Positions 13,115 to 18,379 of a stretch of 64,000 nt of DNA are shown here, in pieces; position 1 is the stretch's first letter; every line of letters starts with the position of its first letter. The notes under the pieces were generated by a model that had not been told where the DNA came from, did no database searches, and saw only the letters and a program-made list of their open reading frames with translations. The translations under genes were made by a program, and so were the position numbers. Source of the stretch: Utricularia gibba (lineage: Eukaryota; Streptophyta; Magnoliopsida; Lamiales; Lentibulariaceae); contig NEEC01000009.1 in assembly GCA_002189035.1 (NCBI GenBank), positions 496,001-560,000 of the forward strand, given 5' to 3'.

Positions 13115-13751
13115 TTAAACCTGACCCAAAAAAACGGGTTCGGATCGGACTATTCTACCCTTGGAACTGGAACCAGCGGGGTTGCAGTTATCCCTGATCG
13201 CCGTCAACTCGTACGGGGGTGCGTCGGATGCAAGCCACTGTTCGACGGCGAGCATCTGCTGCGCGCATTGCCGATGGGCGCCGGAGGACGTGACCTCGAC
13301 GTAGTTGCAGTACCATCCGTGGCCGGAGCCAGATCCGTCGGAGGTGAGATTCATCGCGCAGGCAGGGCACAAAAGGCAAGGCCCACGGCCGCTGAAAATG
13401 TCGAGGTTCCCTCTCTCGAAATAGTCGTGGCCGTAGCCCATTAACCCGCCCCACGATTCCAGATCGCCGATCACGAACCCGGATCCTGCGACGTCGTACA
13501 GCGTCAGGGAGATCGTCGAATCGGTGCCGCCTTTGATGATCGATCCCGTTCTCACGTACACGGTGTACACGCAATCCGATTCCGCCTGCAAAATCCGCCA
13601 TTTCCACGATTCAACGACGCAAACTGATAATCAAAACCAGCTTTTTGTAGGTATACGCATGTAACGTCAACTTTGGAAGAAGACGAAAACTCACAGATAC
13701 GGAGAAGAAGATACAGACACAGACAAAGAGGAAGAGCTTTTCGGTTTCCAT
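13115..13751 (-). CDS. PLAT domain stress protein (PLAT1/PLAT2-like)
   Basis: Plant PLAT proteins are small ER or secretory single-domain proteins induced by abiotic stress and ABA. There are two exons: 13695-13751, encoding a 19-residue hydrophobic leader METEKLFLFVCVCIFFSVS that fits a signal peptide, and 13115-13585, encoding the domain. Together they give 175 aa, close to the roughly 180 aa of the family. Diagnostic stretches are CVYTVYVRTGSIIKGGTDS, FERGNLDIFSGRGPCL, MNLTSDGSG and EQWLASDAPPYELTA. The acceptor TTTGCAG lies directly before AESDCVY and keeps phase 0. Cysteines are abundant, as expected for a secreted fold. The last 20 or so residues are less conserved. The domain assignment is certain; the choice between PLAT1 and PLAT2 orthology is not. 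Confidence 0.92.
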
Positions 13752-13904: not shown

Positions 13905-14384
13905 TGCTTAGGATTCTTCAGACGAGTTTTGATGGAAGAAATTGATTGAGGATAAACAGGAGATATGGGATTTTAACTTTGGAATATATGAGATCTGATT
14001 GTAAGGTATGAGAGAGTTTCTGCAGAACTGCACATACAAGAATACTGGGAACTCATATTTATAGGCTTCATATTCGACCGTTGCCGAAGTTACCGTTGTG
14101 TTTGTCAGTTGCTTCATCAACGGGAGGAGACGCTCCTCTTCTCATCACTGCTGTCTTCATCTTGTCGTAGTGCCACTTCGTTGTTGGGCTGAGCCTTCAA
14201 TGGGCCTCCATGAATGCTGGCCTAATGCTTGCAGGGCATGTACAGGTAGGAACCCATCACTAGAAATCCAGTTTGATTTCTATCCCCATTCATCTTCACG
14301 GGAGACTTCTCGTACTCTCGTGCCTTCTTCCCCAACTCTGCAATTCCGTATCCAGCTTCCTCATTTTGAGTTGTGGCAGGATCA
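13905..14384 (-). mobile_element. Ty1/copia LTR fragment (minus orientation)
   Basis: Reverse complemented, this is the long terminal repeat also seen at 14705 and 17729. It reads through GATCCTGCCACAACTC, a TATA-like TATAAATATGAG, and on to an end in ...CCTAAGCA at 13905. It lacks the first 20 or so bases (TGTTAGTGTGTGAAGAAGG) present in the other copies, and joins directly to an RNase H fragment of opposite orientation at 14385. It is the most complete copy at the 3' side, implying a full LTR of about 500 bp. Confidence 0.8.
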
Positions 14385-14704
14385 ACAACTATGTGATGAC
14401 CTGAAGATCAACATCATCAAACCCATAGTGCTGAAAATAGACAATAAATCGGCAATCAGCATTGCTCAAAACCCGATGATGTTCGGACGGACAAAACACG
14501 TAAAAATCAAGTATCATGTACTCAGGGATTATGTTAAAGAAGGATCGATCAAGTTAGATTACTTACCTTCGGAGGAACAGGCTGCAGACATTCTTACGAA
14601 ATGTCTATTTCCAAGAAATTTCAACAGGATCCGCAGCATGCTAGGGCTGAGACCGAATCCGCTGGAGATTAAGCCAGAATCCAAATTCCTTCTTCAAGGA
14701 GGAA
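14385..14704 (+). mobile_element. Ty1/copia RNase H 3' fragment
   Basis: This encodes the last 100 or so residues of a copia polyprotein: the RNase H end with KIDNKSAISIAQNP, GRTKHVKIKYHVLRDYV and the terminal ADILTKCLF...KFLLQGGML. It leads straight into the LTR start TGTTAG at 14705, so here the natural polyprotein-to-3' LTR junction survives. The 5' side is cut at the RNase H codon for LCDDLKI. It is truncated and not functional. Confidence 0.85.
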
Positions 14705-15116
14705 TGTTAGTGTGTGAAGAAGGAATTGATCCTGCCACAACTCAAAATGAGGAAGCTGGATACGGAATTGCAGAGTTGGGGAAGAAGGCACGAGAGTACG
14801 AGAAGTCTCCCGTGAAGATGAATGGGGATAGAAATCAAACTGGATTTCTAGTGATGGGTTCCTACCTGTACAAGCCCTGCAAGCATGAGGCCAGCATTCA
14901 TGGAGGCCCATCGAAGGCTCAGCCCAACAACGAAGTGGCACTACGACAAGATGAAGATAGCAGTGATGAGAAGAGGAGCGTCTCCTCCCGTTGATGAAGC
15001 AACTGACAAACACAACGGTAACTTCGGCAACGGTCGAATATGAAGCCTATAAATATGAGTTCTCAGTATTCTTGTATGTGCAGTTCTTCATAAACTCTCC
15101 CATACCTTACAACCAG
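14705..15116 (+). mobile_element. Ty1/copia LTR fragment (plus orientation)
   Basis: This begins with TGTTAGTGTGTGAAGAAGG and contains the TATA-like TATAAATATGAG near 15047. It stops about 90 bp short of the full LTR end, where it fuses at CTTACAACCAGA to antisense RNase H sequence. It is the outer part of the left arm of the large inverted repeat. Confidence 0.82.
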
Positions 15117-15841
15117 AATTTGGATTCTGGCTTAATCTCCAGCGGATTCGGTCTCAGCGCTAGCATGCTGCGGATCCTGTTGAAATTTCTTGGAAATAGA
15201 CATTTCGTAAGAATGTCTGCAGCCTGTTCCTCCGAAGGTACGTAATCTAGCTTGATCGATCCTTCTTTAACATAATCCCTGAGTACATGATACTTGATTT
15301 TTACGTGTTTTGTCCGTCCGAACATCACCGGGTTTTGAGCAATGCTGATCGCCGATTTATTGTCTATTTTCAGCACTATGGGTTTGATGATGTTGATCTT
15401 CAGGTCATCACATAGTTTTATAATCCACTGAGTATGGTTCGCAGCATAAGCTCCAGCAATGTATTCTGCCTCGGTTGAGGACTGGGCGACCGAGTCTTGT
15501 TTCTTGCTGTTCCAAGAAAATACAGCAGAACCTAGATGAAACAGATATCCTGTGGTGGAGCGACAATCATTATCATCTCCAGCGAAGTCTGAGTCCACAA
15601 AACCCTGCAGGTTAGCTTCTGTCCCCTTTTTAAAATATAACCCAAAATTGATCGTAGCCTTCAGATAGCGAATGATTCTCTTGGCAATCTCCATGTGTAC
15701 CTTGTGAGGTTTGTGCATATACCTTAGAGGAAAGACACAGCGAACGTGATATCAGGGCGCGTGGCCATAAGGTACATTAGGGCCCCTATGATCCTTTGAA
15801 AGTCATGAGGATCACATCACTGGTTATCCATTTGCTTCATC
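15117..15841 (-). mobile_element. Ty1/copia RNase H segment, left arm
   Basis: The minus strand encodes ATRPDITFAV, YLKATINFGLYFKKG, GFVDSDFAGDDNDCRSTTGY, SSTEAEYIAGAYA and the RNase H end SEEQAADILTKCLF. It carries a TGA stop near 15825 where the right arm has TGG. A small deletion breaks the frame before the MHKPHK stretch near 15718. The C-terminus is fused to LTR sequence after KPESKFWL. It is dead. Confidence 0.88.
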
Positions 15842-17009
15842 TTGTGTTTCAGTTTTGGGGGAAACGGTATGGAGCTGTCTTTGGCATGCTGTTGCCCAAA
15901 TCTGAGTATAATATCTTCCATGTATTTCTTTTGATTCAGAAATATGTATTCATCCCCTTGTTGAATTTCCATTCCCAGAAAATAGCATACCATCCCGAGA
16001 TCTGCCAATTCAAATCTGCTTTTCAGTAGCTCCTTCTGTTCTTCAATCTGGTCAGCATTGCTTCCAGTAATGAGTATGTCGTCAACATACAGGGTTATAA
16101 TCACTTTGCCTTTGGAATTCTCCAGGATGTACAACGTGGTGTCATTCTTGCTTCTCATGTAGCCGGATTCTATGAAGTAAGTGTCTATAGTCCCATACCA
16201 CTCCTTGGGTGTCTGTTTTAAGCCGTAAAAGGCCTTTTTCAGTTTCAGTACTTTGTCTTTGCCTGCTTTGATCTCAAATTCGGGCGGCGGATGTACATAG
16301 ACATCCTCGTGGAGTTCCCCATTGAGGAAGGCACATTTTATGTCCAAGTGATACAACTTCCAGCGGAAACTTGCTGCCATTGCTACTACCAATTTTATGG
16401 TGTCGAGGCGAGCGACAGGGGCGAAGGTCTCAACATAGTCTATCCCTGCCCTTTGAAGGTACCCGAGAGCCACCAATCTTGATTTCAGTTTGTTGATAGT
16501 GTAGTCTGGATTCAGTTTCGGTTTTCGAATCCATTTGAGACCAAGAACTCTGGTATTTGCGGGTTTATCGACGACTTCCCATACATCATGCTTTTCAATG
16601 GAGGTCAGTTCCTCATACATCGATTTCTTCCACTCTGGATCTTTTAAGGCTTCTTGATTACTAATAGGCTCATAGATCAAAAGGCACTTGTCGAGAATGT
16701 CTTTGATATATCTATATTTGGGGTGAAGAGGTCGGTCACTGTTATCATGATAATCTTCATTGTTTTCAGGGTCTGTTTCAGAGAAGTGAAGAACATATCG
16801 TGCATAGAGTTCCTTTTCTTTGTCTGTCTCATTGTCATGTGATTCAGAGGCTGATATTTCTTGTAATAATCTAGGGGCGAAACAGGGGTTCCTAGCTGGA
16901 TGAACAATATTTGCTGAATCATCACTGGATTCAGTACCAACTGAGTCTCTGGAGAGGTCCTGCATGTATTCTTCTTGAAGGGTAAGATTAGGGTTGCTTT
17001 CACTAGATG
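15842..17009 (-). mobile_element. Ty1/copia reverse transcriptase segment
   Basis: The minus-strand frame 16965-15817 contains the copia reverse transcriptase core (RVT_2 type). It starts with DPEWKKSMYEELTSIEKHDV, then VLGLKWIRKPK, the DIKCAFLNGELHEDVYV motif, GLKQTPKEW and the catalytic LYVDDILITG. Upstream integrase, protease and gag are missing, and the frame meets stops before RNase H. This is the unique spacer of the inverted repeat. The core motifs are intact, so the insertion is probably not very old. Confidence 0.9.
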
Positions 17010-17728
17010 AAGCAAATGGATAACCAGTGGTGTGATCCTCATGACTTTCAAAGGATCATAGAGGCCCTAATGTACCTTACGGCCACGCGCCCTGATATCA
17101 CGTTCACTGTGTCTTTCCTCTAAGGTATATGCACAAACCTCACAAGGTACACATGGAGATTGCCAAGAGAATCATTCGCTATCTGAAGGCTACGATCAAT
17201 TTTGGGTTATATTTTAAAAAGGGGACAGAAGCTAACCTGCAGGGTTTTGTGGACTCAGACTTCGCTGGAGATGATAATGATTGTCGCTCCACCACAGGAT
17301 ATCTGTTTCATCTAGGTTCTGCTGTATTTTCTTGGAACAGCAAGAAACAAGACTCGGTCGCCCAGTCCTCAACCGAGGCAGAATACATTGCTGGAGCTTA
17401 TGCTGCGAACCATACTCAGTGGATTATAAAACTATGTGATGACCTGAAGATCAACATCATCAAACCCATAGTGCTGAAAATAGACAATAAATCGGCGATC
17501 AGCATTGCTCAAAACCCGGTGATGTTCGGACGGACAAAACACGTAAAAATCAAGTATCATGTACTCAGGGATTATGTTAAAGAAGGATCGATCAAGCTAG
17601 ATTACGTACCTTCGGAGGAACAGGCTGCAGACATTCTTACGAAATGTCTATTTCCAAGAAATTTCAACAGGATCCGCAGCATGCTAGCGCTGAGACCGAA
17701 TCCGTTGGAGATTAAGCCAGAATCCAAA
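17010..17728 (+). mobile_element. Ty1/copia RNase H segment, right arm
   Basis: Plus-strand copy of the RNase H coding segment. The frame 17129-17740 is open from MHKPHKVHMEIAKR through SSTEAEYIAGAY and AADILTKCLF to KFWL, and closes at a stop produced by the abnormal LTR junction. The first bases repeat the last bases of the reverse transcriptase region. It matches the left arm almost base for base. Confidence 0.88.
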
Positions 17729-18142
17729 TTCTGGTTGTAAGGTATGGGAGAGTTTATGAAGAACTGCACATACAAGAATACTGAGAACTCATATTTATAG
17801 GTTTCATATTCGACCGTTGCCGAAGTTACCGTTGTGTTTGTCAGTTGCTTCATCAACGGGAGGAGACGCTCCTCTTCTCATCACTGCTATCTTCATCTTG
17901 TCGTAGTGCCACTTCGTTGTTGGGCTGAGCCTTCGATGGGCCTCCATGAATGCTGGCCTCATGCTTGCAGGGCTTGTACAGGTAGGAACCCATCACTAGA
18001 AATCCAGTTTGATTTCTATCCCCATTCATCTTCACGGGAGACTTCTCGTACTCTCGTGCCTTCTTCCCCAACTCTGCAATTCCGTATCCAGCTTCCTCAT
18101 TTTGAGTTGTGGCAGGATCAATTCCTTCTTCACACACTAACA
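17729..18142 (-). mobile_element. Ty1/copia LTR fragment, right arm (minus orientation)
   Basis: Reverse complement of the LTR, ending at 18142 with the LTR start (CTAACA on the plus strand). It contains the same TATA-like motif as the other copies. Five bases following (AGTTT) do not match the five bases before 13905 (TGGAG), so the cluster as a whole has no evident target duplication. Confidence 0.82.
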
Positions 18143-18379
18143 AGTTTGTGTGGAAAAGGGGTTTATTCTATGTAAGAGTTTTCAAAATCTTTAAAAACAG
18201 TGAAGAATTCATCAGAGGCAGGATGTATTTAAGCAGATTTGGCGAGATGGAAGATTTTTCCAGGTGCCAAAGACCACAAAAACTACTGCTGTTCTTTGAA
18301 AGTTGGGGATGTGCTGCAAATGCGTCCTTGTATGAATTTGAGCTCTCGTTGTCGGAGGCATTGGTGGGGGTGCTTAAGC

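Follow-up and report, generated by a model that had tools for sequence, protein, structure and literature searches.

A defective derivative of a Ty1/copia LTR retrotransposon occupies positions 13930-18142 of the window, the 64,000-nucleotide stretch of Utricularia gibba contig NEEC01000009.1 that was analysed. It is one old integrated element in minus orientation, a copia-type mosaic in which seven blocks (A-G, 4213 bp) include a large inverted repeat. A single retrotransposon insertion can turn into a kilobase-scale inverted repeat, here in a very compact plant genome, and repeats of this scale are a locus type thought able to initiate silencing. The features, with strand, are as follows.

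13925-13929, no strand: left target-site duplication (TSD) AGTTT, directly outside the LTR-end TG at 13930
13930-14385, minus: block A, genuine 3' LTR with its 3' (CA) end complete and its first 21 nt absent, as judged from its tail against relatives
14387-14704, plus: block B, 3' part of RNase H plus polypurine tract (PPT) AAGGAGGAA, inverted filler copy, with RNase H, PPT and LTR contiguous as in the C1 relative
14705-15114, plus: block C, LTR nt 1-410 by alignment, last ~66 nt absent; left end of the left arm
15115-15846, minus: block D, RNase H and C-terminal reverse transcriptase (RT), left arm; breaks off 17 nt short of the LTR start and lacks the PPT
15847-17002, minus: block E, RT with RVT_2 domain and integrase/RT linker; spacer between the arms
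17001-17731, plus: block F, inverted copy of D, right arm
17732-18142, minus: block G, genuine 5' LTR with its 5' (TG) end complete, truncated at nt ~411
18143-18147, no strand: right TSD AGTTT

The order and orientations of the LTR, RNase H and RT copies had been claimed in the initial annotation of this DNA, and alignment located the blocks accordingly. The aligned LTR copies lie at 13994-14385(-), 14726-15117(+), and 17730-18121(-), and the aligned RNase H copies at 14387-14688(+), 15116-15417(-), and 17430-17731(+); judged by length and by their 97-99% identity, these repeats are not chance. The inverted-repeat arms, 14705-15846 (C-D) and 17001-18142 (F-G), are 1142 nt each and 99.4% identical (seven mismatches, one of them at the E|F joint, and no gaps), and the spacer separating them is 1154 nt, close to the ~1.13 and 1.17 kb originally given. 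The proposed copia origin was also borne out, as the RT block (15820-17001, minus strand) matched Pfam RVT_2 (PF07727, E=1.4e-71) in a reading frame open across 394 codons. The RNase H block had no Pfam match; it resembles the corresponding region of many copia elements of this genome.

Copia (Pseudoviridae) relatives within the genome (C1:4297585-4302904, C451:2793720-2799151, C451:6089528, and C3:4169621) share with the locus TG..CA LTR ends, the PPT AAGGAGGAA before the 3' LTR, LTRs of ~470-496 nt, an RVT_2 reverse transcriptase, and a 5-bp TSD. The locus differs from them in its interior of inverted copies, its length (4213 bp versus ~5.4 kb), and its lack of gag, integrase, and primer-binding site (PBS). 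Neither these nor protease was present in 13930-18142, all of whose blocks could be assigned to LTR, RNase H, RT, or linker, and comparison with the C1 relative shows canonical linker sequence continuing in block E to about 17002.

Three relatives within the genome served to define the LTR borders: L030, L028, and the C1 element (L024/L026). Their LTRs start with TGTTRGTG... after the purine tract AAGGAGGAA/AAGGATGAA and end with ...TCTTCYAACA (TTTTCCAACA in C1), followed by TGGTGAA..., which is presumably the primer site. The tail of copy A, TTCTTCCATCA at 13930, aligns with TCTTCYAACA, and A including its missing 21 nt would measure ~477 nt, compared with 470-496 nt for the LTRs of the relatives. 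Copies C and G terminate ~66 nt before the LTR end defined by A and the relatives. The terminal LTRs have the same orientation, G beginning with TGTTAG at 18142(-) and A finishing with ..CCATCA at 13930(-), and the flanking 5 bp match perfectly (AGTTT at 13925-13929 and at 18143-18147). Region 13905-13997 holds nine TG dinucleotides, and the probability of a chance TSD match at one of them is ~1%, a figure that excludes the separate agreement of the relatives on the position of the LTR end. The canonical TG/CA ends and 5-bp TSD therefore mark the boundaries of a single element integrated in minus orientation, whose 5' LTR is G and whose 3' LTR is A. A left end at 13996 was rejected on mismatched flanks (agatc/agttt), and correction to 13930 gave the perfect TSD.

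These borders revise the initial annotation, which placed the structure at 13905-18142: the right end stands, and the left end moves to 13930. The perfect TSD AGTTT at the mosaic ends is an addition to it, as are the 3' truncation of the inner LTR copies and the absence of the first 21 nt from the left LTR. It had also excluded a simple insertion, which no longer holds at the outer boundary, where the TSD and authentic ends frame one insertion. Intact ends and a TSD separate the insertion from the rearrangement inside it.

The interior junctions have 0-3 nt of microhomology overall. At C|D, 2 nt are shared (GA); at A|B there is no microhomology and perhaps one added base; and E|F shows 2-3 nt of it (CA/CAC), plus one base added or changed. 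At the PPT/3' LTR border only 37 canonical bp are missing: block D reaches to 17 nt from the LTR start, and A picks up at LTR nt 22. This 37-bp gap is occupied by the inverted filler C-B, an RNase H-PPT-LTR copy. A deletion combined with an insert copied from nearby or homologous sequence is what characterises a filler-DNA scar. The same LTR|RNase H junction is found at C|D and F|G, and the PPT is still attached to C only; G-F therefore looks like a copy of C-D made via LTR homology.

Divergence among the copies is uneven, with 9/392 differences for A-C, 5/302 for B-D, 1/410 for C-G, and 5/728 for D-F. C and G are significantly closer to each other than A and C are (p=0.010), and the arms (6/1138) are closer than the A-C and B-D pairs combined (14/694, p=0.004). 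Of the six arm differences, four are found in the 110 nt beside the loop (p=0.001), a pattern expected if conversion had homogenised the remainder. All six are transitions, which is consistent with decay of methylated cytosines. The differences between A/B and C/D comprise eight transitions and six transversions, and the transversions hint at the involvement of two element variants, although the comparison was non-significant (p=0.11). A derived G-to-C change (15159/17688) is common to D and F and absent from B and all outgroups; D and F also have a shared frameshift near the RT/RNase H border. Outgroup comparison also assigned at least two derived bases of its own to B, and private changes to each of D and F. 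Two models of the arms would fit these patterns: G-F may be a later copy of C-D made through LTR homology, or the arms may be as old as the remaining blocks, with their outer ~1 kb recently converted. Each would need homologous exchange between inverted LTR-bearing segments.

Our preferred explanation, given about an even chance of being correct, is that breaks in the integrated element were repaired by templated copying in inverted orientation, and that the arms later underwent gene conversion with each other. It is preferred because of the 37-bp gap, the decay shared by D and F, and the fact that of C and G only C is still joined to a PPT. The insertion of one copia element, in minus orientation and with a minus-strand gene on either side, is shown by its ends and TSD; under this explanation, its interior would later have broken and been repaired by copying. 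One break at the PPT/3' LTR border may have cost 37 bp, and 728 nt of RNase H-PPT-LTR(1-410) sequence may then have been copied into the gap in inverted orientation from a sister chromatid, the homologue, or another copy. A second break would have deleted the tail of the 5' LTR together with PBS, gag, and integrase. What was left of this LTR could then have paired with the inverted inner LTR, with copying running on past the junction of the inner LTR into RNase H and RT; end joining of the copied strand to the RT linker would have produced the 1.14-kb arms, and conversion between them would have kept their outer ~1 kb alike since. The locus is now a dead remnant. We infer both the order and the number of these events. 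Plant breaks repaired with filler DNA copied from nearby sites have been documented (PMC2686159). As in the maize p2/p1 scars described there, the locus combines a deletion with a nearby-copied insert and little or no microhomology. However, the filler is at least 0.7 kb, inverted, and inside a retrotransposon, and at 728 nt it far exceeds the published maize fillers quoted there (8-131 bp), which counts against break repair. The A/B versus C/D transversions also count against it, as two co-packaged RNAs could equally supply them. An empty site or homeologous region was sought genome-wide (assembly of 100.09 Mb in 516 contigs), and the flanks matched only short stretches, apparently exons, at 69-84%.

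A tentative competitor is that the mosaic was built before integration, by RT switching between RNA and cDNA templates or by joining of broken cDNA in the virus-like particle, and then integrated in one step. The authentic outer ends and perfect TSD fit it as well as they fit break repair, since the unit could enter whole; the 0-3 nt of microhomology at the breakpoints, the partly transversional A/B versus C/D differences (as if from two RNAs), and a family without another remaining copy among the matches listed are also in its favour. The purine tract is the site of plus-strand priming, and one junction lies 8 nt from it. However, several inverted switches would be required within one molecule, and neither the 37-bp closeness of the A and D breakpoints nor the frameshift common to D and F is predicted. 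In its strictest version, which we consider less likely than not, one reverse-transcription episode gave a self-complementary mosaic cDNA that integrase inserted whole; if so, retrotransposons could make ready-made hairpin loci in one step, without later chromosomal rearrangement. The initial annotation had proposed aberrant reverse transcription with template switching, or fold-back synthesis at a break, and one such process is indeed needed, as in the two readings above; it had missed that LTR-homology-templated repair can explain the large arms. Its dismissal of nested insertion also agrees with our data. C ends with ..ACAACCA beside RNase H, superficially like an integrase joint, and two nested same-family elements with such a joint at C|D were our first model. 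We dropped it, together with autointegration, as the relatives place the real LTR end ~66 nt beyond C|D, which is no LTR terminus. Inner TSDs are also lacking, and just three LTR copies were found genome-wide among the matches listed, all within this locus, so we regard both versions as very improbable. Palindromes are a known type of artefact in assemblies and reads, for example as long-read hairpins. Against a chimera stand the derived substitutions in each arm, the spacer, the unequal sequences of the arms, and the authentic element ends flanked by a perfect TSD, which make it the least probable reading of all.

In geometry, the locus is an inverted repeat able to form a hairpin, with perfect duplex runs of up to 598 nt between the arms. 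TATAAATA is kept in all three LTR copies, and a transcript starting at G or C could span both arms and fold back. The initial annotation had suggested that small RNAs from such loci silence related copia copies. A precedent exists in maize, where Slotkin et al. (2005) are said to have described Mu killer as an inverted duplication of MuDR. Like this locus, Mu killer (as cited in PMC11624286) is an inverted transposon segment that could in principle form a hairpin; unlike Mu killer, the locus derives from an LTR retrotransposon rather than MuDR and has no close targets among the matches listed. That the locus was retained for silencing other copies is very improbable. The best other copy has ~82% identity, with no near-identical target elsewhere in the genome among the matches listed, exact matches to the relatives checked extend to 22 nt at most, and no 24-mer is shared with relatives in the loci tested. 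Silencing of related copies would therefore be weak, and the main target of any silencing would be this locus. We found nothing directly comparable in the literature on rearranged LTR elements with inverted duplications; the locus is unusual, and its mechanism is of a known kind.

The insertion lies between the 3' end of one minus-strand gene, which has a weak Exo_endo_phos2 match below the Pfam cut-off (inositol-phosphatase-like), and the start of a minus-strand PLAT/ATS3 gene. The likely ATG of this PLAT/ATS3-like gene, at 13751, lies 179 bp downstream of the end of LTR A, which is directed at the gene and could serve as an alternative promoter for it. LTR A retains TATAAATA at 14063.

The initial annotation proposed a genome search for other copies of the same structure. 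Our search covered 150 scored RNase H-like matches of 843 candidates, and none was found among the two nearby opposite-strand RNase H pairs examined. The pair C451:2644218/2646235 (L032) was rejected as same-family inverted copies, with a 64% inverted match, and the pair C255:937624/939288 (L033) was likewise not same-family, with no inverted match between its members. Copia RT/RNase H sequence occurs twice in L032:1876-6188, in opposite orientations and 1.4 kb apart; the two stretches are diverged (64% alike) and are probably different families inserted side by side.

Nine RNase H matches (C451:6125788, C213:757323, C213:1921195, C236:19411, C321:1510850, C328:2415621, C412:2553364, C413:428684, and C422:39693) had identical scores and 77% identity to this element, some with frames open for up to 1632 aa. 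This points to a recent burst in a related copia family. Ten more RNase H matches, at 69%, form a second group of similar appearance. A related copia element in L028 (C3; 3684-6561 of that locus) retains both LTRs but has lost gag and integrase from the interval between its primer site and RT linker, a deletion much like the missing part at the locus studied here.
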